A DNA stretch of 36,561 nt from a virus. Shown one piece after another: positions 2,772-35,746 of this stretch. The translations under genes and the position numbers were made by a program. Each line of letters begins with the position of its first letter. The first letter of the stretch is position 1. The stretch spans positions 1 to 36,561 of the IMG/VR virus record IMGVR_UViG_3300032246_001756; one strand, written 5' to 3'. The notes below the pieces were generated by a model that was given only the letters and a program-made list of their open reading frames with translations, did not search any database and was not told the origin of the DNA.

Positions 2772-3767
2772 ATGAAATACGCATTAATCGACACTGCAAA
2801 TACATTCTTTCGTGCCCGACATATCGCTAGCAGAAATAGCGATACATGGGAGAAGATCGGGATGGCACTTCATTTGACAATGGCTAGCTGTAATCAGATT
2901 GTCCGCAAGTTTGGAGTAGATCATGTTGTGTTCTGCTTGGAGGGGCGCAGCTGGCGCAAGGACTTCTACACGCCTTACAAAAAGAATCGTGTAGTAGATG
3001 CAATGTCTCAGACAGAAGCAGAGGTTGAAGAAAACAAAATGTTTTGGGAAACGTATGAAACATTTACCACTTACTTAAAAGAGAAAACTAATGTTAGCGT
3101 ATTGCGTGATCCAATTGCTGAGGCTGATGACTTAATCGCACGTTTCATTCACTTGCATCCCGAAGATGAACATTTTATTATCAGTAGCGATACAGATTAC
3201 TTACAATTGATTACTCCAACTGTAAAACAGTACAATGGTGTAGCAGGTCATCTGATAACACTTGAAGGATATTTTGATGACAAGGGTAAGCCTGTAAAAG
3301 ACAAAGAAAAGAATATTAAACTACTAGAAGATCCACAATATCTATTGTTCAAAAAATGTATGCGTGGTGATGGTACTGACAATGTATTCAGTGCATATCC
3401 CGGTGTCAGAGAGAAGGGTTCACAAAAGAAAGCTGGACTGATTGAAGCCTATGCTGACAGGACTAAACAAGGTTTTGACTGGAACAATATGATGCTCCAA
3501 CGTTGGACAGATCATAATGGTGTTGAACGTAGAGTGCGTGATGATTATGAACGCAATCGTATCTTAATTGACTTGACTGCACAACCGGATAACATTAAAG
3601 AATCAGTAGATAATAGCATTCGTCAAGGTGTGCGTACAACTACTATTTCGCAAGTTGGTATTCACTTTATGAAGTTTTGTGGTAAATATGATTTGGATAG
3701 AATCAGTACAAATGCTGAGACTTATTCCAAGTGGCTTAACAGTCCTTATGCAGGTGTATTAAAATGA
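2772..3767 (+). CDS. 5'-3' exonuclease / flap endonuclease (T4 RNase H-like)
   Basis: A FEN-type 5' nuclease that removes RNA primers and flaps during phage DNA replication. Visible motifs in order: YALIDTANTFFRARH at the N-terminus (first metal Asp at residue 7), FCLEGRSWRKDFYTPYKKNR (basic arch region), EADDLIARF and SSDTDYLQLI (metal-binding acidic residues), then KKCMRGDGTDNVFSAYPGV, matching the helix-three-turn-helix DNA clamp with its GD-DN signature. At 331 residues it is slightly longer than T4 RNase H (305). There is no Shine-Dalgarno sequence and a -10 box lies six bases before the ATG, so the message is probably leaderless. It overlaps the next gene by four bases (ATGA). Confidence 0.92.
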   Translation: MKYALIDTANTFFRARHIASRNSDTWEKIGMALHLTMASCNQIVRKFGVDHVVFCLEGRSWRKDFYTPYKKNRVVDAMSQTEAEVEENKMFWETYETFTTYLKEKTNVSVLRDPIAEADDLIARFIHLHPEDEHFIISSDTDYLQLITPTVKQYNGVAGHLITLEGYFDDKGKPVKDKEKNIKLLEDPQYLLFKKCMRGDGTDNVFSAYPGVREKGSQKKAGLIEAYADRTKQGFDWNNMMLQRWTDHNGVERRVRDDYERNRILIDLTAQPDNIKESVDNSIRQGVRTTTISQVGIHFMKFCGKYDLDRISTNAETYSKWLNSPYAGVLK

Positions 3768-4003
3768 ACGAACGAATTAAACAACTACTCAATGAAGCAA
3801 CAAGTGGTCATGAGCAAGAGCATGATCGTTCAAAAGTTATGACTGTCTCAGATAAAGAGATGGACAAGTTCGCCCAGTTGATTGTGCGTGAATGTGCGAA
3901 AAAAGGATTTGACATTTTTGATGAAGAACCAGACGCACCAGCAAGTGACTTACAGTTTTATGTTCGTGACAGAATCAAAGAACATTTCGGAGTTGAAGAA
4001 TGA
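3764..4003 (+). CDS. Small connector-family protein, copy 1 (FAxLIVREC...HFGVEE)
   Basis: One of four paralogues in this window (others at 5968, 32610 and 34883). Shared features are an MNERIK-like start, a central helix F-A-Q-L-I-V-R-E-C-A, an acidic aromatic segment and the terminus IKEHFGVEE. It overlaps the genes on both sides by four bases. The codons for the last residues contain GGAG at 3989-3992, exactly seven bases before the ATG of the following gene at 4000, so the end of this gene acts as that gene's ribosome binding site. The family is common in environmental phages; its biochemical role is unknown to me. Confidence 0.85.
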   Translation: MNERIKQLLNEATSGHEQEHDRSKVMTVSDKEMDKFAQLIVRECAKKGFDIFDEEPDAPASDLQFYVRDRIKEHFGVEE

Positions 4004-5967: not shown

Positions 5968-6234
5968 ATGAACGATAAAATTAAAGAACTTGCTGAACAG
6001 GCTGGATTCAACCTTCCTAATAATTTAGTTGAAGGTGTAAATGGTCCGGGTGTTGTAACAGAAAAAGATAAGTTGGCCGAGTTCGCCGAGTTGATTGTTC
6101 GGGAATGTGCCAAGGCTGCATATCTATACGCTAGTGATTCAGAGAACTATGAACACTATGACAACAATGGTTGGGATTGCCTACCTGGTGATTTACAAAG
6201 CCATATTAAACAACATTTTGGAGTTGAAGAATGA
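5968..6234 (+). CDS. Small connector-family protein, copy 2
   Basis: Paralogue of the proteins at 3764, 32610 and 34883: MNDKIKELAEQAGF start, FAELIVRECAKAAY helix, acidic aromatic patch NYEHYDNNGWD, and IKQHFGVEE terminus. GGAG at 6220-6223 in the last codons lies seven bases before the next gene's ATG at 6231, and the two genes overlap as ATGA. The organisation is the same as in copies 1 and 4, which argues that the 3' end is kept as a translation-coupling signal as well as coding sequence. Function of the protein unknown. Confidence 0.85.
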   Translation: MNDKIKELAEQAGFNLPNNLVEGVNGPGVVTEKDKLAEFAELIVRECAKAAYLYASDSENYEHYDNNGWDCLPGDLQSHIKQHFGVEE

Positions 6235-7020: not shown

Positions 7021-7444
7021 AAATCAATTTTGGATTGTTACAGATGGTACAGAAAAAGTAGGAAATGTTATTGCTGATGGGTCCGGCTTTGCAGTTAAAC
7101 TCAACGGCAATAAAACTCATTTTAAAAATACCAATACTATTCAAAAGCAAACTAATATTCAGTTTCAAACAATCAAAACTGAAAAGATAAAGCATGAGTT
7201 GCCCTTCAATGAATATCCAACAACAAAGAAGGTATTCAATTCAATGCTGGATATCAAACGAAAACTCCACTTATTCACCAAGACATTAAAAAGCAAGTGC
7301 TATCACACTGCGGGTTGGTATGTATTGTATCAGGGAAGTGAACCAACTATTACGTTTTGTCCTAAATATATCTTTATCCAGCGTTATGAGTATGTTGGTC
7401 CTTTTAAAACTGAGGATGATGCAAAAGCAGTGATAAATATCTAA
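6986..7444 (+). CDS. Hypothetical protein, 152 aa
   Basis: The ATG at 6986 follows a purine-rich GAAGAAG a base upstream, and the first 35 bases overlap the preceding gene, so the start is plausible but not certain. Basic throughout, with NQFWIVTDGTEKVG and SGFAVKLNGNKTHFKN suggesting repeated short beta units, and CYHTAGWYVLYQGSE later. The final segment YVGPFKTEDDAKAVINI resembles the end of small phage proteins that carry a repeated beta-hairpin. Function unknown. Confidence 0.65.
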   Translation: MSKPLIAKPVVKNQFWIVTDGTEKVGNVIADGSGFAVKLNGNKTHFKNTNTIQKQTNIQFQTIKTEKIKHELPFNEYPTTKKVFNSMLDIKRKLHLFTKTLKSKCYHTAGWYVLYQGSEPTITFCPKYIFIQRYEYVGPFKTEDDAKAVINI

Positions 7445-7644
7445 TGATTCATATCAAACGATTTATTGATAGAGTAGCTAGTATTGAAAGCAGACAGGGT
7501 AAGGATGTGGTTATTCCATTAACCGATGCCCGTGGACTGCGTGATGAATTGGCTAAATTACTAATAGATCACTATGATGCTACTGAAGGAAAGAAGAACA
7601 CTTCCGAAGTTATTGAAGTAGAACTAGTCGGAGGTAAATTTTAA
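7444..7644 (+). CDS. Conserved small phage protein, 66 aa
   Basis: Begins MIHIKRFIDRVASIESRQGK and continues DVVIPLTDARGLRDELAKLL, a pattern I recognise from T4-like environmental phages without a known function. Alpha/beta, acidic C-terminus ending IEVELVGGKF. It shares one base with each neighbour. A TAAATA motif (7434-7439) lies four bases before the ATG but also codes for the end of the upstream gene, so it may be chance. Confidence 0.72.
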   Translation: MIHIKRFIDRVASIESRQGKDVVIPLTDARGLRDELAKLLIDHYDATEGKKNTSEVIEVELVGGKF

Positions 7645-8319: not shown

Positions 8320-8492
8320 CAGAAGAAAAGAAAAGTAAAAATCCATTTATTAACATGGCTAATGAAGTTAAAAAGAATAATGCCAGTGAGCATCCCGGAT
8401 TGGGAAAAGCTCCAAAAAAGCAAGGACCTAAAGTAAATACTAAAGGATTTGGTGGGTCAAGTGTTGTTCGTAGAACTGGACGAGGTGGTTAA
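8316..8492 (+). CDS. Small basic Gly/Lys-rich protein, 58 aa
   Basis: Starts MTEEKKSKNPFINMANEVKK in an ATGA overlap. The C-terminus is rich in Gly, Lys and Arg (KAPKKQGPKVNTKG then VVRRTGRGG) and looks disordered and nucleic-acid binding. Its stop codon overlaps, on the other strand, the stop codon of the convergent gene at 8489-8977, so the + strand run of small genes ends here. Confidence 0.65.
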   Translation: MTEEKKSKNPFINMANEVKKNNASEHPGLGKAPKKQGPKVNTKGFGGSSVVRRTGRGG

Positions 8493-8977
8493 TACCACAC
8501 ACCTTCGTTACGCATACGTTTAATAAAAGACAAGTAATTACTACATACACCAAAGCATGTTAGGTGTACAGTACTAAACATTGCTCTGTCTTGTATCTCG
8601 GGCAGAAATATAACACTAGTGTTGTTTATAGCAACAGTTCCGGGGGTGATAATCTTCCCGTTGCTTGCTGTTACGGGTGTGTTTTCTGTAGCCGAGGGAA
8701 ACCAAAAGTAATTTGGATACAACTTGCTTGGTTGTGTTACTATCCAATCTTGCATTTCAGTATTCATGGCATTAATCCAAAAACGAGGACCTTGAATATA
8801 TTTCTCAGTTACTTGTGTTATGGGTTGAAAAACGCCCAAATACAATATTCCATTTTCACGCCAAACATTAACCATTGTGCTGAATCCAGCATTCATTGAT
8901 TTAGTTATTTGTCCGGGAGTAGCTGCATCTTCAAAATTGGTTCCGTCAAAGATGCCCTGATAAGATATATATTGCAT
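8489..8977 (-). CDS. Conserved phage protein on the minus strand, 162 aa
   Basis: One of the few minus-strand genes here. Begins MQYISYQGIFDGTNFEDAAT and ends CSNYLSFIKRMRNEGVWY. The pattern of AGFSTMVNVWRENGILYLGV, then FWINAMNTEMQDW and KLYPNYFWFPS, vaguely suggests a small glycerophosphodiesterase-like barrel, but catalytic residues are not evident, so I leave the function open. There is no Shine-Dalgarno sequence; a TAAATA late-type motif ends four bases before the ATG. It is transcribed toward the preceding run of genes. Confidence 0.75.
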   Translation of the reverse strand: MQYISYQGIFDGTNFEDAATPGQITKSMNAGFSTMVNVWRENGILYLGVFQPITQVTEKYIQGPRFWINAMNTEMQDWIVTQPSKLYPNYFWFPSATENTPVTASNGKIITPGTVAINNTSVIFLPEIQDRAMFSTVHLTCFGVCSNYLSFIKRMRNEGVWY

Positions 8978-20360: not shown

Positions 20361-22004
20361 ATGCTTAAAAGAATATTCAGTTTTTCCAATCTCACACTAT
20401 TAGTAGCATTAATCCTTAGTACTATCGCCGCATGGTATAGTATTATTGGTTTGACTACTATCTTTGCTGGAGCAGTAGTTCCAGTTATCATCATGGGTTC
20501 GGCACTTGAACTCGCTAAGATCACCACAACTGTATGGCTGCGTAAGTATTGGCATCGTGCTGGGTTGTTACTCAAACTCTACTTGGTGCCTGCTGTAATG
20601 GCTATTGCATTGATTACAAGTATGGGTATCTTTGGCTTTTTAAGTAAAGCACACATGGATCAGGGTGTTACATCAGGTGATGTACAAGCCAAGATATCAA
20701 TTTATGACGAGAAGATTAAAACTAGTAAAGACAACATAGATGCCAATCGTAGGGCGCTTAAACAAATGGATGAGGCTGTAGACCAAGTCATGGGCAGAAG
20801 CAGTGACGAAAAGGGTGCTGAAAAATCCGTTGCTATTCGTAGAGGTCAAGCCAAAGAACGTGTGCGACTACAAGCTGAAATCATTGCCGAACAGAAAACA
20901 ATTAGCCAACTGTCTGAACAACGAGCCCCTATTGCAGCCGAAGTACGCAAAGTTGAAGCAGAAGTGGGTCCAATCAAATATATTGCAGCATTACTATATG
21001 GTGATAATCCTGATGCTAACATTTTAGAACGTGCTGTACGTTGGGTTATTATTTTACTTGTTATTGTATTTGATCCACTTGCTATTGCTCTTGTACTAGC
21101 AGCTAACGCAAGTAAAGATTGGGATAAAGAAGAGGAAGAAGATACTCCTGCATATGAAGCTGATTATAGTCCTATTAGCGATGAAGTACTGGAACAATTA
21201 CGTGCTAGTGCAAACAAAGATTTACCGTCAGGTGAATTAATTAGCAAAGAGGAGTTGTTTCCTCCCGAAGTTGAACCTGAACCAAGTGACGATACACTAG
21301 AACCTTGCTACAAGTGTGGTACACCATTGGTTGATGCTCCTGGCATTGGTCCCTTCTGCCCAAATAAAAAATGTGATGTGTTTGACAGTCCTTACATAAA
21401 AGATAGCAAACCAATTGATATTACTTATATTCCACCTGAACCAGTTGTAATAGAACCTGTAGTTGAAAAAGAAATGACTGTTGATTCTACTGAAAAAATC
21501 GTTGACCAAGATCCAAATTTTGAAGGCATAAAAGTTGATGGTGAATGGGTACAAACAGGTCCTGCATTTAAAGAAATACCCAAAGTTGAATTAGATGACA
21601 AGATCGTAGCCAATACTATTCCTTTTGAAAATTTAGAAGGTGGTTATGTAATGTATGATGGCAAGCACATGCACAAAGATGTATTAGTGGGTATGCATCC
21701 TGATATGTTAAAATTAGTTGCTGATTCGGGCAGAGAAAGTAAAACTAGTTTTGGAACGGTATTTCCATCTGTATCTACAAAAGGGGATACCTTTGTTCGT
21801 GTAGATACCTTACCAAATAAGGTATACAAATTTGATGGAACCAGGTGGATTGTTGTTAATAAAGAACAGTCAACTAGCTACCTACATGACCAAGAATATA
21901 TCAAGTATTTGGTCAAAAAGATTGAAGCGGGTGAGTATGATATTGAATTGTTATCTGATATTGAAAGACAGCAAATTGAAGAATACTTGACCAAAAGCGA
22001 TTGA
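20361..22004 (+). CDS. Conserved phage membrane/coiled-coil protein, 547 aa
   Basis: Three hydrophobic helices lie in the first 95 residues (LTLLVALILSTIAAWYSIIG, FAGAVVPVIIMGSALEL, LYLVPAVMAIALITSMGIFG). A long coiled coil follows (DEKIKTSKDNIDANRRALKQ and on), then a fourth membrane segment (WVIILLVIVFDPLAIALVLA). The C-terminal half is a cytoplasmic or lumenal acidic tail with a zinc knuckle pair (CYKCGTPLVD and FCPNKKCD). To my recollection, proteins with this N-terminal arrangement are widespread in aquatic myoviruses, but the function is unknown. No Shine-Dalgarno sequence; a late-type motif lies four bases upstream. Size and abundance suggest a late envelope or assembly role (inference). 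Confidence 0.85.
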   Translation: MLKRIFSFSNLTLLVALILSTIAAWYSIIGLTTIFAGAVVPVIIMGSALELAKITTTVWLRKYWHRAGLLLKLYLVPAVMAIALITSMGIFGFLSKAHMDQGVTSGDVQAKISIYDEKIKTSKDNIDANRRALKQMDEAVDQVMGRSSDEKGAEKSVAIRRGQAKERVRLQAEIIAEQKTISQLSEQRAPIAAEVRKVEAEVGPIKYIAALLYGDNPDANILERAVRWVIILLVIVFDPLAIALVLAANASKDWDKEEEEDTPAYEADYSPISDEVLEQLRASANKDLPSGELISKEELFPPEVEPEPSDDTLEPCYKCGTPLVDAPGIGPFCPNKKCDVFDSPYIKDSKPIDITYIPPEPVVIEPVVEKEMTVDSTEKIVDQDPNFEGIKVDGEWVQTGPAFKEIPKVELDDKIVANTIPFENLEGGYVMYDGKHMHKDVLVGMHPDMLKLVADSGRESKTSFGTVFPSVSTKGDTFVRVDTLPNKVYKFDGTRWIVVNKEQSTSYLHDQEYIKYLVKKIEAGEYDIELLSDIERQQIEEYLTKSD

Positions 22005-23676: not shown

Positions 23677-23714
23677 TTAAAATAGATAGCAAATAATAAA
23701 AGATAAATTAATAT

Positions 23715-24920
23715 ATGACTGTAGAATCAAAACTAAATTATTGCTCTTTTTGTGAAACCCACAAAGATAAAGTTAAAAAACTAATCGTAGGTGATGATGT
23801 TGCTATATGTAGCGACTGTATTGAACTATGTAGTAAACTCCTTGAAGATGAAACCTCTGTAGTTGAAGCAGAGGAAAAACAAGAAGAGGTTAAAAATGAT
23901 CCTTCTAGTATCAAAGAATATTTAGATTTACACGTTATCGGACAAAACAGTGCTAAAACTGTATTAAGCGTGGCTATTGCAAATCACTACAAACGCATTA
24001 CTTATCCACCAAAAGATTTAGAAATTGCTAAAGGAAATGTGTTAATCATAGGTCCTACTGGTAGTGGTAAAACACTGCTGGCCAAGACTGTAGCCAAATA
24101 TCTCAAAGTGCCCTTCGTTGTTGCAGATGCTACAAGTTTAACAGAAGCTGGTTATGTAGGTGATGACGTTGAATCAATGATTAGTATGTTGGTTAACGCA
24201 GCAGGTGGTGATCCTAGACTAGCAGAACGTGGCATTGTGTTTGTTGATGAGATTGACAAGATTGCACGTAAAGGTGAATCAACCAGTCTTACACGTGACG
24301 TATCAGGTGAAGGCGTACAACAAGCATTGCTTAAGTTAGTTGAGGGTACAGTATGCCGCATCCCTGCAGGTGGTGGAAGAAAACACCCCGGTGGTGATAT
24401 GTTGGAAGTTGATACGAAAAACATCCTATTCATATCAGGTGGGGCATTCGTTGGATTGAGAGATATCATTGGTAATAGAAAGAATGGTACTAGTATTGGT
24501 TTTGGTGCAGATATTAAAGATAGTAAAAAAGAAGGTGATTTAAGTCAAGTTACCCCGGACGACCTTACTAAATATGGAATGATTCCTGAATTTATTGGAA
24601 GATTCACCACGACAGTTAGCATTGAAGAATTATCCAAAGAAGAATTATTGAGAGTACTAACTGACGTTAAAAATAACTATATTGCCCAATACACATACTT
24701 GTTTGGTATTGATGAAATTGAACTGAAGTTTACCAAAGATGCACTAGAACAAATTGCTGAAAATTGCATTTCATTTAAAACCGGGGCACGTGGTTTGCAT
24801 ACTGAAATTGAGCGTGTACTAATGCCACACATGTACAATACTAAAAAATACAGAGAAAATAACATTAAAAAGATAAATATTACTAAGGAGCAAGTTTTAG
24901 AACCCAAATCAATAGTATGA
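23715..24920 (+). CDS. clpX: ATP-dependent Clp protease unfoldase subunit ClpX
   Basis: Full-length ClpX of 401 residues. Zinc-binding domain with C10, C13, C32 and C35; Walker A GPTGSGKT at 113-120; pore loop AGYVG at 145-149; Walker B VFVDEID near 175-181; RKH loop GGGRKHPGG; ClpP-docking loop SIGFGADI; and sensor 2 region [11 protein letters not shown]. All parts needed for unfolding and docking to ClpP are present. The start lacks a Shine-Dalgarno sequence; TAAATT with five bases to the ATG could be a variant of the late motif. It overlaps the bS21 gene by four bases. The phage also encodes ClpP at 30092. Confidence 0.96.
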
Positions 24921-25138
24921 GTATAAAAGGAAGACGAGTTATTGTCACTGACGGAAACGTTGAAAAAGCACTACGTAAATTCAAAAAAAAGATTACTGAT
25001 CAAAACCTATTGCAGGAATTGCGTGAGCGTGAACAATATGTCAAACCTTCTGTACAGCGTAAAGTTGATAAAGGATTAGCCAAACGTAGATGGCAAAAAT
25101 ACTTGCGTGACCAGAGTCTTCCCAAAAAACTGTTCTAG
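24917..25138 (+). CDS. rpsU: Ribosomal protein bS21 (phage-encoded)
   Basis: 73 residues, the normal bS21 length. [20 protein letters not shown] then [18 protein letters not shown] match the conserved A-L-R-x-F-K-K, E-L-R-x-R-E-x-Y-x-K-P-S-x-x-R-K signature, with a basic tail. bS21 binds the 30S platform beside the 3' end of 16S rRNA and is needed for efficient initiation on Shine-Dalgarno messages in enteric bacteria. Phage bS21 genes are known in large phages; they presumably replace the host copy. It is translationally coupled to clpX (ATGA overlap) and has no strong ribosome binding site of its own. Confidence 0.93.
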
Positions 25139-25141
25139 TAT

Positions 25142-25786
25142 ATGTCATTAAAAAATAGATATTTTTTTTATTTAGGATTTGGTGGAAATTGTGTGCATTT
25201 TATTGCTACCCTAGCCCATTATAATTTTTCAGGATGCGTTGACACTATACTCTTTAGCAGCAGTGGTCATTCTCATCGTTATACCAAAGCTAATAATATA
25301 TTTAGAAATGGGGATGGACAATTTACTATAACTGATGTTTTTCCTAGTGAAATGAAACGTTTAGATAACGATACTCTTACATACATTACATTGGATACTG
25401 AACTAGATGCACAATTTAGTGCAATTAATCATTATTTAAAAGTAATGCATGATATTCGGTTCTATGACTCTTTTTACAAAGACAAAGCTGACAAACCTGA
25501 TAGGTACTCCCAAGAAGTTTATATCGAATACTGTAGGCATATGAGACCTGCCTTAGTTCTTTTACCACGGCTAGTCCAACCCGAACCGTCAACATTTGAC
25601 ATAAGTTTCTCTGATATCTACCGTAATAAGAATAAAATTATAAATTTTATAGAAAATCTTACACAAAAAAAGTCTAACAAAATGCTTGAAACAAATTATG
25701 ATAACTACTTAGAACTACAAAAAAAAATATTAATAGAAAAAGCTCCGTGGTTTTATTATGATGAGGGTAAATATTATTTTACCTAA
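25142..25786 (+). CDS. Conserved phage protein, 214 aa, unknown
   Basis: Three bases after bS21. Starts MSLKNRYFFYLGFGGNCVHF, a hydrophobic strand followed by a Gly-rich turn as in nucleotide-binding or sulfotransferase-like folds, though no P-loop is present. The C-terminus FSDIYRNKNKIINFIENLTQ then YDNYLELQKKILIE resembles the tail of sulfotransferase-like phage proteins. Function left open. Lower-quality codons and more A/T than clpX. Confidence 0.7.
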   Translation: MSLKNRYFFYLGFGGNCVHFIATLAHYNFSGCVDTILFSSSGHSHRYTKANNIFRNGDGQFTITDVFPSEMKRLDNDTLTYITLDTELDAQFSAINHYLKVMHDIRFYDSFYKDKADKPDRYSQEVYIEYCRHMRPALVLLPRLVQPEPSTFDISFSDIYRNKNKIINFIENLTQKKSNKMLETNYDNYLELQKKILIEKAPWFYYDEGKYYFT

Positions 25787-25825: not shown

Positions 25826-25853
25826 ATGTGAGTGCCGATAGTCGGGCTCACAT
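25826..25853 (+). promoter_or_regulatory. 5'-terminal hairpin in hsp20 leader
   Basis: ATGTGAG pairs with CTCACAT, with an inner CCGA/TCGG stem and a TAG loop. It would form the very 5' end of the hsp20 mRNA if transcription starts from TAGAAT at 25814. The Shine-Dalgarno sequence (AAAGGAG) lies about 20 bases downstream outside the stem, so this looks like an mRNA-stabilising or regulatory 5' hairpin rather than a simple ribosome-site thermometer. Confidence 0.6.
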
Positions 25854-25883
25854 AGTCATCTTGCTTAATAAAGGAGAAAACAA

Positions 25884-26336
25884 ATGACAAAAACACTAAC
25901 TTTCCGTCACCTTGACATTCCACAACTAAACAAATTTGGTATCGGTTTTGATACTATGTTTGATGAGTTGCAGCGAGTGCATTCACAACAATCCGGTACA
26001 AACTATCCCCCATATAATGTCGTCCAAATTAATGAGGATGAATATATGATTAGTATGGCTGTAGCTGGCTTTGGTCCTGATAATCTTTCAGTAATAAAAG
26101 AGAAAAACTTTTTGATTATTGAAGGTAAAGAATATCAGTCCGATAGTGAACAAATTGTGCCTAACTATCTACATAAAGGTATCAGTAACAGAGACTTCCG
26201 CAGAGAATTCAAACTTGCTGACCACGTGGAGATAGAGAACGCACATCTTGAATTGGGTATTCTTAACATTCATCTAAAACGTGAAATCCCTGAAGATAGT
26301 AAGCCCAGATCAATTGCTATATCATATACTAAATAG
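25884..26336 (+). CDS. Small heat-shock protein Hsp20 (IbpA-like)
   Basis: AAAGGAG precedes the ATG. An alpha-crystallin domain spans about residues 45-140: PPYNVVQINEDEYMISMAVA, the beta-strand GFGPDNLSVIKEKNFLIIEG, FRREFKLADHVEIENAHLEL, then GILNIHLKREIPE with the C-terminal motif region. This is the standard order for IbpA/IbpB-type holdases that bind aggregating proteins for later refolding. 150 residues, usual length. Monocistronic: its own promoter and leader hairpin upstream, a strong terminator 11 bases downstream. Hsp20 genes are found in several large aquatic phages, perhaps to protect virion assembly. Confidence 0.93.
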   Translation: MTKTLTFRHLDIPQLNKFGIGFDTMFDELQRVHSQQSGTNYPPYNVVQINEDEYMISMAVAGFGPDNLSVIKEKNFLIIEGKEYQSDSEQIVPNYLHKGISNRDFRREFKLADHVEIENAHLELGILNIHLKREIPEDSKPRSIAISYTK

Positions 26337-26397: not shown

Positions 26398-26703
26398 ATG
26401 TCTAAAACAGAAACAAAAATCAAGATTAAACCTAACCTCGCATTGGTCGAGCCACCGTTGTACAAAATCATTTATATTAATGACAATGTTACCAGTATGG
26501 AATTTGTTGTGGGTAGTTTGATTGATTATTTTAATTATAATCAGGATACTGCACACAGTATTACTCATAATATTCACGAAGAAGGTAGTGCTGTAGTTGC
26601 TGTGTTGCCCTATGAAATTGCTGAACAGCGTGGAATTGAAGTTACCTTAGAAGCACGAAGTCAAGGATTTCCTCTACAAATTAAAGTAGAGGCTGATGCT
26701 TAA
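26398..26703 (+). CDS. clpS: ClpS-like N-degron adaptor
   Basis: 101 residues, like host ClpS. A disordered N-terminal 18 residues is followed by PPLYKIIYINDNVTSMEFVV, the binding-pocket strand (E. coli N-D-D becomes N28-D29-N30, gate Met at 34). Then come the helix TAHSITHNIHEEGSAVV with the pocket His at residue 60, and a closing segment ARSQGFPLQIKVE. ClpS delivers proteins with destabilising N-terminal residues to ClpA-ClpP. No clpA is in the window, so it may act through the host ClpAP. Its stop overlaps the stop of the convergent gene. Confidence 0.9.
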   Translation: MSKTETKIKIKPNLALVEPPLYKIIYINDNVTSMEFVVGSLIDYFNYNQDTAHSITHNIHEEGSAVVAVLPYEIAEQRGIEVTLEARSQGFPLQIKVEADA

Positions 26704-27401
26704 AGAGCGATCTCTATTCGTTTAGGCCAATAAGGCTTTCTACCAAAATAGCCATTATTAACATAGTTGACATTATTAATAGTAGTGTCAACTATTTTTC
26801 CATACGTGCCATACAACCAATGAGATATTTTGCTTTCAGTATCAGCTAGCATTGCTATGCCTAAATTTAATTGATTTTGTATAGCTTCTGGTTCTTCACC
26901 AAAGTATAGTTCAACACTAGGAACTGAATTACTAACTATTACAATCTTTTTAACATCCAAATGTTTTTGCAATCGTTCAATAGTATTTTTTAGATAGAGT
27001 AAATCTTCATTGCGGCACTGCTCAAGCAATACATCAACTATTGGATCGGTGTGGATGGTATTACCATACCATCCATTGGCGCCGGCAATTGCAATACCAT
27101 CAACTACTACCACGTGATGGTGCATGACGGCTACATTGCGTATATGTTTACAAATTTTATATATTTCTTCGGTTCTTTTATGTACATCAATCGTATTGTT
27201 GTATTCCAATGAACCTAGAGTATAGAATATACCCTGATAGAATTTAGATAAATGTAATAGGGTTTGCTTTATAGTGCGTAAATCTTCACTAATATTACCT
27301 GCTATAATACAGTATAAACTAGTTGCTTTACCTTCCCAATTAAAACTATCTTCGGGGGATAGATTCAAATCACTAATTAGGTCAAACCCTATTATATTCA
27401 T
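26700..27401 (-). CDS. Metallophosphoesterase homologue with all metal motifs lost
   Basis: Aligns by eye along its length with the intact phosphoesterase at 33157. The five metal and catalytic motifs are all replaced: D-L-H becomes SDLNL (residues 10-14), G-D becomes AGNIS, G-N-H-E becomes LGSLEY, G-H-H becomes VSNSVPS, and G-H-M-H becomes YGTYGK. Between them the scaffold is kept, for example NVAVMHHHVVVVDGIAIAGA versus NVYFLEQELKVIDDVTFIGA and the following W. So the fold is probably retained without phosphoesterase activity, as a binding or structural protein. On the minus strand, coupled by TAATG to the Lys/Ala/Pro-rich gene that precedes it. Confidence 0.75.
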   Translation of the reverse strand: MNIIGFDLISDLNLSPEDSFNWEGKATSLYCIIAGNISEDLRTIKQTLLHLSKFYQGIFYTLGSLEYNNTIDVHKRTEEIYKICKHIRNVAVMHHHVVVVDGIAIAGANGWYGNTIHTDPIVDVLLEQCRNEDLLYLKNTIERLQKHLDVKKIVIVSNSVPSVELYFGEEPEAIQNQLNLGIAMLADTESKISHWLYGTYGKIVDTTINNVNYVNNGYFGRKPYWPKRIEIAL

Positions 27402-27694
27402 TACTTAGCAATGCTAATTCTAGGCTTCTTTGTTGCAGGAGCTTTTGGCTTAGCTGGGGCTTTAGCTTTTGCAGGGGCTTTAGCTTTTGCAGGGGCTTTA
27501 ATTGCAGCAGCTTTGGGCTTTGCTACTTTTGGCTTAACTGGAGCTTTAGCAGGTGCTGCTTTAACTTCCAATGGAATTGGTGTAGTTGCAGCTGGCTCAG
27601 GAACCTTATAAGGCACTGAATTATCTACTGACGCAGGTGTTGCTACTGGGGCTGTGGATTCAATCCCGAATAGACTTTTTAGAAATTTGATCAT
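27401..27694 (-). CDS. Lys/Ala/Pro-rich histone-H1-like protein, 97 aa
   Basis: Start chosen at 27694 (MIKFLKSLFGIES) because GGAG lies eight bases upstream of that ATG. The first 12 residues form an amphipathic helix like MGLFDKLFG in the gene at 845. The rest is a disordered Lys/Ala/Pro polymer with repeated KAPAKAKAPAKAK and KPKAAA units, similar to eukaryotic H1 or bacterial H1-like tails. No signal peptide, so cytoplasmic nucleic-acid binding is plausible. A TAAATA motif sits 18 bases upstream of the start. Confidence 0.75.
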   Translation of the reverse strand: MIKFLKSLFGIESTAPVATPASVDNSVPYKVPEPAATTPIPLEVKAAPAKAPVKPKVAKPKAAAIKAPAKAKAPAKAKAPAKPKAPATKKPRISIAK

Positions 27695-27711
27695 AATTTT
27701 CTCCTTCATTG

Positions 27712-27783: not shown

Positions 27784-29286
27784 ATGCGTGAATTTATAAA
27801 TATTATCCAAAATTTGACTGAAGCTGCGGTTGGAATGAGTGCCAACGAAATCAAAAAATATCAGTGGAGATTTGACAAATTTATTGAATACATTACACAG
27901 CGTAAACCATTCACTACTGTTGATGGCGGGGAAGCATTGATTGACCCGCGTGAAGCCAAACGCTTTAAACAGATGTATGATAACGGTGAGTTTACCGGAG
28001 CATTACAAGCTAGACAAACAGACGGTGAACCCATTGCACTGAGTAGTTTAGCTAAAACTAAGGACTTTGGTGGTGCAGCCGTAGCATTTGGACAGGATGC
28101 ATCTACTGGTGGCAAAGAAGCATTATTGGTAAAACCAAGTCAAATTGGTATATGTGATAAGAATATCCCGGCATCCGACTTATACGAATTTATTAGAACT
28201 AACCCAGTATTAAAAAGCACTGAGTATGGTAGAGTTGTCATACAATTAGCTGATTATATCGTAGCGGGTGAATATGTGATGCTTCCAGAAGAATATCAAG
28301 AAAAAGACAAAGAAAAAATTCGTAAAGCTATTGTTGATTATGCAGGTGAATACTTGGGTGTACTAGCGTTACTTTACAATAGAAGCAGATTCCCCAAACG
28401 TGCTGAATTCAATCAATGGTTGGGCGGCACGACTGACGATTTAATTATTAACTTTCCTTTAAAAGCAAACACTAATCTTGCAGACAGTTTTGCTACTATC
28501 ATTAATCCAAAGACACAGCATACACTTAACATCTCTAGTAAGGGAACAGGTGGAGGTGCTGCCCCTGCAATATCGGGATTAAAATTACCCGACTATGTAA
28601 AAAAGAATCCTAATTACAAAGTTGTAACTAATTTTGTACAATTGTGCCAACAAGAGGGGACGATTCAGCAAGCCTTTTCTATCATGGATTTACTTTATGC
28701 TACTAATCCAAAATCAATTGATAAAAAATGGCATGCATTTTTACCCTTTGCAACACAATCACCTAAACTACAATTATTAGCTAAACAAAGTTTAGATAAC
28801 AAAAAGAATCGGATTGATACTCCTCTCCCAAACAAATATTCAAAATTGTTTAATGATTTAGCGGCTACGGAAAGTGCGAGTGATGGTGGAAAATTAGTTT
28901 ACTCAATTAAAAAAGAAGTTGCTGATGCTGTAAATAACAAAGATGCTATTCCAGAATTCAAAGCTGCTATTTTAGAAATTTTAGAAATGAATTTTATACA
29001 ACAATACACTGATTATGCAAGTGGACAGCTATTGTTTGCAACTCAGTGGCCTGCAAAACTAGACGGTGATATATCGGTGGTGAATAAGTCTAGTGCAGTG
29101 GATCCAACTGCAGGTGGATTTAGTTTTAAACTAGGCAGAACTGATGATAGTGTCAGTAGCGAACCGGGCGAACCTTATATTGATACAGATGATAATAGTG
29201 GTCAAGATTTGACTACCGTTGCAAAGAATATAGTAAATCCAGTACGCAAAGAAAAAGAAACTTCAGTTCGCAGTAAACGAAAATAA
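27784..29286 (+). CDS. Predicted capsid-targeted protein with prohead-protease site, 500 aa
   Basis: The N-terminus MREFINIIQNLTEAAVG resembles T4 capsid-targeting sequences (short amphipathic helix then a protease site). L-T-E followed by A at residues 11-14 fits the T4 gp21 cleavage rule (Leu or Ile, any residue, Glu, then a small residue). The rest is alpha/beta and not recognised; a Gly-rich LNISSKGTGGGAAPAISGLK segment near residue 257 recurs in phage proteins, and the S-x-K could belong to a PD-(D/E)xK-like core, though this is weak. Acidic, disordered C-terminus ending RSKRK. If packaged, it would be injected with the DNA (inference). Driven by a late-type motif. Confidence 0.75.
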   Translation: MREFINIIQNLTEAAVGMSANEIKKYQWRFDKFIEYITQRKPFTTVDGGEALIDPREAKRFKQMYDNGEFTGALQARQTDGEPIALSSLAKTKDFGGAAVAFGQDASTGGKEALLVKPSQIGICDKNIPASDLYEFIRTNPVLKSTEYGRVVIQLADYIVAGEYVMLPEEYQEKDKEKIRKAIVDYAGEYLGVLALLYNRSRFPKRAEFNQWLGGTTDDLIINFPLKANTNLADSFATIINPKTQHTLNISSKGTGGGAAPAISGLKLPDYVKKNPNYKVVTNFVQLCQQEGTIQQAFSIMDLLYATNPKSIDKKWHAFLPFATQSPKLQLLAKQSLDNKKNRIDTPLPNKYSKLFNDLAATESASDGGKLVYSIKKEVADAVNNKDAIPEFKAAILEILEMNFIQQYTDYASGQLLFATQWPAKLDGDISVVNKSSAVDPTAGGFSFKLGRTDDSVSSEPGEPYIDTDDNSGQDLTTVAKNIVNPVRKEKETSVRSKRK

Positions 29287-30091: not shown

Positions 30092-30679
30092 ATGAGTTTA
30101 GTCCCAATCGTTTTAGAACAAACTGCAAAAGGTGAGCGTAGTTATGATATCTATAGCCGCATGTTGCGTGACCGTGTGATTTTGCTTGAGGGCGAAGTAC
30201 ATGATCAAATGGCAAATCTAGTTGTTGCACAATTGCTTTACTTGGAAAGTGAAGCAGATAAAGATATCAGTGTTTACATCAATAGCCCAGGTGGAAGTGT
30301 AACTGCTGGTATGGCAATCTATGATGCAATACAATTTATTAAACCCGATGTACAAACTATCGTTATGGGGCAGGCTTGCTCAATGGGCAGTTTACTTGCA
30401 CAAGCAGGTGCTAAAGGTAAGCGTTATATGTTACCCAATGCTAGACACATGATTCATCAACCATCAGGTGGCGCACGTGGTCAAGCTACTGACATGGAAA
30501 TTCAAGTTCGTGAAATTCTAGCTATGAAAAAGAGTCTTACTCAAATTTATGTTGACCACAATAGTGTAGGTAAAACGTATGATGAGTTGGCTAAGGATAT
30601 GGAACGAGACTTTTTTATGAGTGCAACTGAAGCGGTAGCATATGGTCTAGCTGATGCTGTATTGAAAAAGCGTCCATAA
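30092..30679 (+). CDS. clpP: ATP-dependent Clp protease proteolytic subunit ClpP
   Basis: 195 residues, like mature Clp[18 protein letters not shown] is the oxyanion strand; [11 protein letters not shown] carries the nucleophile (Ser97), [11 protein letters not shown] the His (His122) and [18 protein letters not shown] the Asp (Asp173), so the triad is intact. It starts near the mature N-terminus ([20 protein letters not shown]), so no long propeptide is expected. It would assemble as two heptamer rings and pair with phage ClpX, whose IGF loop is kept, or with host ClpX/ClpA. Own promoter at 30044. Followed by an early promoter for other genes. Confidence 0.96.
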
Positions 30680-30879: not shown

Positions 30880-31152
30880 ATGCGTACAAAAACTATCATT
30901 GAGGGTTTGAAAAATTCTCAAAAATTCCGTGTGATTTTCAAGGGTGATGGTAGTGAAAATGACATTGGTATGTATATGACGGTCAAGCAAATGACCGAGC
31001 AATTTGCTACAGTTAACGCCCGCGCCACTTGCTGGGATGCACTTTTGCAGTTGGCAAATATGCGTTACTTTGCTAAGGTTGACGGGAAGCCAGTACCCTC
31101 TGGTCTTGGCACTACAATCCGCGGTAAACAGATTCAAGTGGATTTGGTATAA
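30880..31152 (+). CDS. Hypothetical protein, 90 aa, first early-array gene
   Basis: AAAGGA precedes the ATG. MRTKTIIEGLKNSQKFRVIF, then GMYMTVKQMTEQFATVNA and ATCWDALLQLANMRYFAKVD: basic alpha/beta protein, possibly with a helix-turn-helix-like middle (MTVKQMTEQFATVNARATCW), but this is not certain. It shares one base with the next gene. Early expression is predicted from the promoter. Confidence 0.75.
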   Translation: MRTKTIIEGLKNSQKFRVIFKGDGSENDIGMYMTVKQMTEQFATVNARATCWDALLQLANMRYFAKVDGKPVPSGLGTTIRGKQIQVDLV

Positions 31153-32494: not shown

Positions 32495-32610
32495 ATGAAG
32501 GAAAAGTAATCCCTATTGTGTTGGAACGATATGCAGGACCACATTGTCCAGATTCTTGCTATCAATGTCAATATCATAACAAATGTCTTGATGAAGCGGA
32601 GATGGAATAA
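32491..32610 (+). CDS. Cys-rich micro-protein, possible zinc knuckle, 39 aa
   Basis: ATGA overlap. MNEGKVIPIVLERYAGPHCP is followed by DSCYQCQYHNKCLDEAEME: four Cys residues (19, 23, 26, 32) with a nearby His, which would suit a small metal site. Its AUG-proximal context is weak and a shifted ATG exists at 32495 in another frame. TAATG overlap with connector copy 3. Confidence 0.55.
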   Translation: MNEGKVIPIVLERYAGPHCPDSCYQCQYHNKCLDEAEME

Positions 32611-32843
32611 TGAACAAACGAATTTTAGAATTAGCAAGACAAGTATGGCCTGATCCTAATACCAGCCATGTCAATCACGAAAAGTTCGCCGAGTTGATTG
32701 TTCGGGAATGTGCTGACTTGTGTGAACACGAATCCAACGATGATGAATATGACCAGTATGATATGGGAATGTCAGTCAAGGCAGAAAGTATCAAAACAGC
32801 GATTAAACAACATTTCGGAGTTGAAGAACAATGGAAGCAGTAG
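32610..32843 (+). CDS. Small connector-family protein, copy 3
   Basis: Paralogue of the genes at 3764, 5968 and 34883: MNKRILELARQVWPD, KFAELIVRECADLCE and IKQHFGVEEQWKQ. It carries a six-residue C-terminal extension compared with the other copies, and the next gene starts inside it (overlap 13 bases). GGAG at 32817-32820 lies ten bases before that ATG, three bases further than in the other copies. Acidic aromatic region DEYDQYDMG. Function unknown. Confidence 0.83.
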   Translation: MNKRILELARQVWPDPNTSHVNHEKFAELIVRECADLCEHESNDDEYDQYDMGMSVKAESIKTAIKQHFGVEEQWKQ

Positions 32844-34427: not shown

Positions 34428-34886
34428 ATGAATATTTTTCACAAAATTATGAACAAACTAGGTCGATATAGGCTAATTCCAGATCGTACTACTGGTGCAG
34501 ATTATATGCACAGATACTACATCTTTCTCAAAGACCGCAAATGGTTTCCCTTTAATATTACATTGCACAAGATTGTTCGTAGTGACGATCCTATTATGCA
34601 TGACCATCCATGGGGATTCATAACTATCATACTTAAGGGTGGTTATTATGAACATACCCCTCACGTTAATCCTTATACAAAAGAAATAGTCGGTGAGAAC
34701 AGAGTTTGGCGTGGCCCTGGTAGTATCATCATTCGTACATCAAATGAATATCATTGGCTTGAATTAGAAAAAGAAAAGCCTGTTACTACACTATTCTTTA
34801 TGGGATCACAAAAACGTGATTGGGGATTCTTATTGAACAACAAATGGGTTCAACATGAAACTTACTTAAAGAATGCCAAACAATGA
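34428..34886 (+). CDS. Cupin-fold protein, 152 aa
   Basis: TAGGAG precedes the ATG. The core, IMHDHPWGFITIILKGGYYE, is a cupin motif 1-like strand pair with two His residues. It is followed by GENRVWRGPGSIIIRTSNEY and H-W-L-E-L, giving a possible second His for metal binding. Cupins range from metal dioxygenases and sugar isomerases to binding domains; no substrate can be assigned. Widespread among phages to my memory. Its end overlaps connector copy 4 by four bases. Confidence 0.75.
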   Translation: MNIFHKIMNKLGRYRLIPDRTTGADYMHRYYIFLKDRKWFPFNITLHKIVRSDDPIMHDHPWGFITIILKGGYYEHTPHVNPYTKEIVGENRVWRGPGSIIIRTSNEYHWLELEKEKPVTTLFFMGSQKRDWGFLLNNKWVQHETYLKNAKQ

Positions 34887-35119
34887 ACGAACGAATTAAA
34901 GAACTTGCTGATGAGGCTAATTTTTCCATTAGTGAAGATAAAGCAAACAAATGGTTTATAATTCAGGGTTCCGGTCATCATTTAGAAAAATTTGCAGAAC
35001 TGATTGTGCGAGAATGCGCCCAAGTTGCAGATATTGAAAGAGATACTTCAGCCGGGTGTGGATATGTTACATACACCGATGGACAAAGAATTAAAAAACA
35101 TTTTGGAGTTAAAGAATGA
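34883..35119 (+). CDS. Small connector-family protein, copy 4
   Basis: Paralogue of the genes at 3764, 5968 and 32610. The first nucleotides (ATGAACGAACGAATTAAA) are identical to those of copy 1. Central KFAELIVRECAQVADIER, terminus IKKHFGVKE. It overlaps both neighbours as ATGA. GGAG at 35105-35108 is seven bases before the ATG of the MazG-like gene at 35116. This is the fullest example of the connector arrangement: the coding ends are also translation signals. Confidence 0.85.
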   Translation: MNERIKELADEANFSISEDKANKWFIIQGSGHHLEKFAELIVRECAQVADIERDTSAGCGYVTYTDGQRIKKHFGVKE

Positions 35120-35401: not shown

Positions 35402-35746
35402 ATGGAATATTCTCTATTATTGGTGTTGTATCTGATTAGCGCATTCATGTTGGGGATGTTTGCAATGGATAAAATTATCTTTTATAAAATCCGCAAAGCA
35501 CTTAAAGAAGCAGGAATAGATGTTGATTCCGAAGAATCTACCAGTGTTAAGGTTAGAAAATTCTTTGTAGAGACTATCAATGATAATCTATATCTGTACG
35601 AGACCGATACTAATAATTTCATTGGTCAAGGAAAGTCATTGACTGAACTAGCATTACTTTCTAAGGATAAAGCAGATATTGCAGGTGTCAATTATAACGA
35701 AGAAATAATTTGGTTTGTGAATGGTGAAGTGAAAACAACAGTATGA
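35402..35746 (+). CDS. Membrane-anchored protein, 114 aa
   Basis: Residues 3-22 (YSLLLVLYLISAFMLGMFAM) are one transmembrane helix, then a short basic linker (FYKIRKALKEAG) and a soluble beta/alpha domain, KVRKFFVETINDNLYLYE to IIWFVNGEVK. The soluble part would be cytoplasmic. Not recognised; the layout is common in T4-like environmental phages. It overlaps the next gene by four bases. Confidence 0.75.
   Translation: MEYSLLLVLYLISAFMLGMFAMDKIIFYKIRKALKEAGIDVDSEESTSVKVRKFFVETINDNLYLYETDTNNFIGQGKSLTELALLSKDKADIAGVNYNEEIIWFVNGEVKTTV

Follow-up and report, generated by a model that had tools for sequence, protein, structure and literature searches.

A phage gene for ribosomal protein bS21 that is coupled to clpX, in a genome where many genes lack a Shine-Dalgarno (SD) sequence, raises the question of whether the phage-encoded bS21 shifts host ribosomes towards leaderless messages, or whether the ribosomal protein and the leaderless-type genes are two separate features that happen to share a genome. 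We approached this question through a 36,561-base virus record with 37% GC (the window, meaning the whole stretch of DNA analysed), a fragment of a large freshwater phage, together with related viral contigs and a panel of cultured phages. The product of 24917-25138 is a genuine full-length bS21. It scores 51.4 bits against the Pfam Ribosomal_S21 model, for which the curated cut-off is 27, and covers positions 2-53 of the 55 in that model. A profile search (hmmsearch) with the alignment of the bS21 family also recovers bS21 chains from ribosome structures (E values as low as 6e-11), and the conserved core of the viral proteins (R-x-R-E-x-Y-x-K-P type) aligns with the ribosomal chains of solved structures; 26 columns are invariant across the 18 viral sequences in the alignment. 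No tRNA and no Rfam family was found in the 36,561 bases of the window, and a scan of bacterial genomes for a bS21 that could identify the host gave only weak or partial matches, with up to 57% identity.

The start codon of bS21 overlaps the stop codon of clpX (ATGA) in the window, and a 4-nt overlap is present in 70 of 81 related loci. Together with the Pfam and PHROG matches, this bears out the original prediction of a full-length bS21 coupled to clpX. The coordinates of these and the other features discussed here are collected in Table 1. A scan of viral contigs yielded 80 loci whose bS21 is 62-99% identical, and since some of these lie on contigs of 200-525 kb, the relatives form a clade of large phages. 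The gene order g20361 - g22681 - clpX - bS21 - (variable) - hsp20 - clpS - g26700 (minus strand) - clpP is kept in nearly all of these loci, the variable position being occupied in the window by a gene whose product has no Pfam or PHROG match, and no similar sequence in nearly all related loci. Within this arrangement, hsp20 has an SD in 54 of 54 distinct upstream regions and clpP in 38 of 38, while clpX is preceded by GATAA[AG]T at about -13, without an SD, in 49 of 54 distinct upstream regions of its orthologues. The GATAAATT box found at this position in the window is a predicted late-type promoter, from which a leaderless clpX-bS21 message would arise. Two further observations concern this region. 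In almost every distinct upstream region, the hsp20 leader (25850-25883 in the window, and its orthologues) carries CTTGCTTA a few bases 5' of the AGGAG SD; this sequence resembles a MotA box and yet is located inside the leader. One relative of 524,565 bases (G004) carries two different bS21 copies, at 63726-63941 and 471898-472113, which may reflect either two phages joined in one record or a true duplication.

Table 1. Features of the clpX-bS21 cassette and leaderless-type genes and candidates in the window.
Feature	Coordinates	Strand	Evidence
5' nuclease, predicted leaderless	2772..3767	+	PF02739; sigma70-type promoter TTGAAA-17-TATAAT-6-ATG
Leaderless-type candidate, GATAAATATCTA-ATG	7444..7644	+	box also in G002 and G003 orthologues
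Leaderless-type gene, TTGACAAGACTAAATACTAA-ATG	8489..8977	-	box also in G002 orthologue
Leaderless-type late gene, unknown membrane protein	20361..22004	+	CTAAATA box ends 5 nt before ATG
GATAAATT box, 13 to 6 nt 5' of clpX ATG, without SD	23702..23709	+	predicted late-type promoter
ClpX: C4 zinc finger, Walker A (GPTGSGKT), IGF loop	23715..24920	+	PF06689, PF07724; motifs from translation
bS21 (rpsU-like), 73 aa	24917..25138	+	PF01165, E=8.5e-14; PHROG 21469 'ribosomal protein S21'
Protein of no assigned family between bS21 and hsp20; variable among relatives	25142..25786	+	
Hsp20 small heat-shock protein, strong SD	25884..26336	+	PF00011, E=1.1e-14
ClpS adaptor	26398..26703	+	PF02617, E=5.3e-23
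Leaderless-type candidate, GTAAATACA-ATG	27401..27709	-	
Leaderless-type late gene, GCATAAATAC 5' of ATG	27784..29286	+	7 of 11 distinct upstream regions have the box
ClpP peptidase, start at 30092 with SD AAGGA	30092..30679	+	PF00574, E=3.7e-78
Leaderless-type candidate, ATAAATAATACT-ATG	35402..35746	+	box also in G002 and G003 orthologues

An SD is present in 25 of the 60 curated genes of the window, leaving 35 without one. Nineteen of these 35, including bS21 and the gene that follows it at 25142, lie within 8 nt of the previous gene or overlap it and have no promoter-like box; they are internal cistrons, stop-start coupled and not leaderless. Because these make up 19 of the 35, the absence of an SD is in itself weak evidence for leaderlessness, and we rejected it as a criterion; the real leaderless signal is the geometry of a promoter set against the ATG. 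Such a box stands at leaderless distance in eight SD-free genes (2772, 7444, 8489 on the minus strand, 20361, clpX at 23715, 27401 on the minus strand, 27784 and 35402), and the remaining eight show neither coupling nor a box. The claim that at least nine genes of the window are SD-free and appear leaderless is thus confirmed in part only. Two of the eight boxed genes could possibly be coupled instead of leaderless, since 7444..7644 overlaps the previous gene and 35402..35746 starts 4 nt after it. The box is best documented for g20361, where [AC]TAAATA is present in 43 of 47 distinct orthologous upstream regions, none of which has an SD. The 5' nuclease, suspected from the outset to be leaderless, retains its predicted promoter in the orthologue of the relative G002 as TTGACA-17-TATAAT-6-ATG, in support of that suspicion.

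Other small genes of the window show repeated arrangements of their own. Paralogous small proteins (MNERIK...FAELIVRECA...HFGVEE) are encoded at 3764-4003, 5968-6234, 32610-32843 and 34883-35119, and the C-terminal codons of these paralogues (GGAGTTGAAGAATG) carry the SD and the overlapping start of the next gene (6231, 32831, 35116). Several small genes (12598, 30880, 31429) share a leader element, CTTAGACAGTTAA, located about 25 nt upstream of the ATG, and the leaders at 30880 and 31429 are near-identical.

The relatives G002 and G003 were read whole, with start codons defined by a simple gene caller that uses no SD terms; the start codons of clpX, g20361 and the terminase are backed by conserved N-termini. 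In both genomes TAAATA favours two distances from the gene start, with a narrow peak at -11/-10 and a wide one from -31 to -23, whereas in T4 the peak is distal only. TAAATA falls within -13 to -9 in 22 of 324 genes of G002 and 29 of 489 genes of G003, none of which has an SD, against control expectations from distal positions of 2.8 and 3.8, and at only 0.23% (G002) and 0.13% (G003) of ATGs that are not starts. Including box variants raises the counts to 28 and 38, and two further relatives, G012 and G015, have the near box in 12 of 232 and 13 of 202 genes, again with no SD. When clade loci are pooled, 96 upstream regions have the near box and one of these has an SD, while 94 have the distal box and 59 of these have an SD (p = 2e-26 for the mutual exclusion of near box and SD). 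The near box is kept in the orthologue for 16 of the 25 near-box genes of G002 that have one in G003 (p = 1e-12), and in the terminase orthologues it is present in 38 of 42 distinct cases. Besides the terminase large subunit, the class includes gp25-like and gp5-like baseplate proteins and other virion proteins. SD-leadered genes, with the distal box at -31 to -23, form a class separate from the near-box genes.

A second type of promoter is found at the same place. Sigma70-type promoters (TTGACA-like/TATAAT) whose -10 element starts at -14 to -11 precede 21 of 1247 clade genes, 17 of the 21 at exactly -12, compared with 6 of 3460 genes in other phages (p = 4e-8 for the clade excess). The -10 element spans -12 to -7 relative to the transcription start site. 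With a -10 element at -12 of the ATG and standard geometry, sigma70-type messages would therefore have the A of the ATG as their first nucleotide. The late box also fits a leaderless start, since in T4 late promoters roughly one helical turn separates the TATA box from the start site downstream of it (PMC2988020) and a gp55-like late sigma is encoded in eight of nine large relatives (phrog_12791, E about 1e-71 to 1e-75). Roughly 6-9% of the relatives' genes have a promoter placed for a message start right at the start codon. Their upstream regions combine a -10 element or late box at the distance of a start at the ATG with a missing SD, and we predict from this promoter geometry, on which our estimate of leader length rests, that the near-box class is leaderless. 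We consider both the conserved leaderless-type architecture and the clpX-bS21 cassette to be real.

The explanation that we favour, with a probability of roughly 0.6, is that these are two independent features: a bS21 that belongs to a proteostasis and ribosome cassette, and a leaderless class that exploits an ability of the host. On this explanation, bS21 occupies the second position in a conserved phage cassette that runs clpX-bS21-(x)-hsp20-clpS and is followed at some distance by clpP, and its translation would depend on termination-reinitiation coupling to clpX. The protein most likely replaces host bS21 in the host 30S subunit, probably in the late phase, alongside a phage Clp/Hsp20 protein-quality system. 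Host RNA polymerase carrying the gp55-like sigma of the phage would read the T4-type late promoters. These, together with some sigma70-type promoters, lie about one helical turn from the ATG, which would place the message start at the start codon or within a few nucleotides of it. The leaderless class most likely uses leaderless translation native to the host, an ability that we assume, and phage bS21 would not be needed for it. The leaderless sigma70-type messages are presumably read before the late clpX-bS21 message and would then be translated by unmodified host ribosomes; if the sigma70-type promoters are early, their messages precede phage bS21, which argues for the host's own ability and against a need for bS21. 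The conserved leaderless-type class accordingly carries a prediction about the host, namely that it translates leaderless messages well.

The clpX-bS21 overlap itself could point to a more direct partnership, in which the shared message yields a phage ClpX(P) that eliminates host bS21 or different host factors, and phage bS21 substitutes for what is lost. McNutt et al. 2023 (PMC9976891) speculated about a protease, encoded by bS21 phages, that would act on host bS21, and the overlap conserved in 70 of 81 loci gives this idea a concrete and testable form. Outside the clade, clpX overlaps bS21 in PA5oct and is followed by hsp20 and clpS in the order of the window clade. In SCTP-2 the order is clpX-bS21-clpS, with hsp20 not between, and in Atu_ph07 clpX is followed about 2 kb on, across the circular origin and with intervening genes, by bS21, hsp20 and clpS. 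The relatives GAP32 and 121Q, which lack bS21, also lack ClpX, and RaK2, likewise without bS21, has a marginal ClpX match only. In the Sinorhizobium phage Phosso, clpX and bS21 are about 8 kb apart, and an IF-3 gene (L550 4309-4830) lies directly 3' of clpX, placing a second initiation component beside a Clp unfoldase. Against this partnership, Vibrio 2.275, HTVC008M and Melnitz have bS21 and no ClpX, and in other viral bS21 families ClpX adjoins in only 6 of 152 loci, so that we rejected the idea that viral bS21 generally lies next to ClpX. The synteny shared by related jumbo phages can be explained by common descent, and the role of host bS21 as a substrate is putative. We also rejected the CobS/peptidase/hsp20 neighbourhood of pelagiphages as independent support for a link to proteases, because the cyanophage Syn9, which lacks bS21, has the peptidase and CobS in the same region. 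We regard a ribosome exchange driven by ClpX as unlikely.

A lower probability still attaches to the model put forward in the original prediction, in which phage bS21 replaces host bS21 and thereby shifts initiation to leaderless or SD-free phage messages. The protein adjoins the anti-SD, E. coli 70S ribosomes take up phage bS21, with incorporation into the 30S subunit shown for the bS21 of HTVC008M (PMC6375957), and Flavobacterium ribosomes without bS21 show improved initiation on a strong-SD message and poorer initiation on SD-less ones (PMC9976891). However, HTVC008M bS21 cut in vitro translation of GFP to about 5% (PMC6375957), the E. coli 61S particles that favour leaderless messages lack both bS1 and bS21 (PMC12186496), and the sigma70-type members of the class, as argued above, probably precede bS21 synthesis. 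If bS21 accompanied or caused the leaderless class, its carriers should be enriched in SD-free or leaderless genes, and we therefore searched PF01165 in cultured phages to define carriers and compared their box counts with controls. The leaderless-type class is absent in the carriers PA5oct, Vibrio 2.275, Phosso and Atu_ph07. SCTP-2 does not exceed background (6 near-box genes against 7.0 expected) and Melnitz is near it (3 against 1.8). HTVC008M, a cultured pelagiphage, does have the class, with 12 of 183 genes against 2.5 expected; its late box is mostly ATAAATAG, a few nucleotides before the ATG in these twelve genes, so that leaderless-type late genes may also occur outside the clade. The non-carriers GAP32, 121Q, RaK2, T4 and the cyanophages all lack the class. 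Counted by lineage, it is present in 2 of 8 carriers and 0 of 5 non-carriers (p = 0.49). At the gene level and with HTVC008M left out, 14 of 1898 carrier genes have the near box compared with 2 of 1380 in non-carriers (p = 0.02, uncorrected for base composition), and six of the 14 come from the AT-rich SCTP-2, where the distal-position background explains them. Nor do carriers use fewer SDs (p = 0.11; the difference runs the other way owing to the cyanophages, which lack bS21 and have the lowest SD use). Since the distal late-promoter class is kept in every phage of the panel, the difference in the near class is not due to loss of the promoter system. We therefore rejected bS21, on this panel, as a predictor of the leaderless class, and a causal link from one to the other is not supported; a weak link is possible, given that the clade and HTVC008M have both. 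The value of this negative result is that it halts a tempting but unsupported connection between the two features.

A combination of these two models appears very unlikely: ClpX(P) made from the leaderless clpX-bS21 message would strip away host bS21 or a different component of initiation, phage bS21 would replace it, and ribosomes altered in this way would prefer the late leaderless messages of the clade. Most improbable of all is that the boxes abutting the ATG reflect AT-rich composition or start calling, with ordinary SD-free leadered messages behind them, since, although the window has 37% GC and starts were called by a simple script, the distance of the box from the ATG is defined to within 2 nt and has a bimodal distribution, the near box excludes SDs and is conserved across orthologues, T4, GAP32 and RaK2 lack it despite comparable or lower GC, and the sigma70-type promoters stand at exactly -12.

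How do the two features compare with known systems? Substitution of host bS21 by a phage protein has already been proposed and partly tested (Mizuno 2019, PMC6375957; Chen 2022, PMC9723584). As in those accounts of phage-encoded bS21 (also Al-Shayeb 2020, PMC7162821), the protein described here is full-length, comes from a large aquatic phage and would fit the proposed late-phase replacement that favours phage messages. Here, however, bS21 overlaps clpX in a Clp/Hsp20 cassette, whereas in the phages of Chen et al. (PMC9723584) it lies among structural genes on the opposite strand, and their hosts are Bacteroidetes, which ignore SDs, whereas the clade studied here has SDs in about half of its genes. 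In huge phages, phage S1-like proteins are reported to correlate with missing SDs (PMC7162821). In the literature that we searched, with incomplete coverage, we found no description of the clpX-bS21 overlap, nor of a leaderless class in T4-related jumbo phages. For these phages, a leaderless-type class that includes the terminase, virion genes and clpX-bS21 and draws on two promoter types thus appears to be new.

A close counterpart is the lytic Thermus phage phiYS40, in which middle and late messages are leaderless while the initiation machinery is changed, with IF2 raised and IF3 lowered (reviewed in PMC3594737). In our clade, by contrast, T4-type late and sigma70-type promoters provide the geometry, and leaderlessness is a prediction from sequence. 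Moreover, no IF3 or HPF gene was found in eight large clade records (IF3_C was the model searched for IF3), and we rejected such a phage factor as the cause of a leaderless preference. PA5oct, Atu_ph07 and SCTP-2 have clpX, bS21, hsp20 and clpS in the same or a close order and lack the leaderless-type class. T4 late transcription (gp55/gp33/gp45; PMC2988020, PMC7892883) shares with the clade a gp55-like sigma and a TATA-type box that is separated from the start of transcription by about one helical turn; in T4 and the other jumbo relatives, however, this box lies 20-40 nt from the ATG and leaves room for an SD, whereas the phages described here have a second class in which it lies 10-11 nt away.
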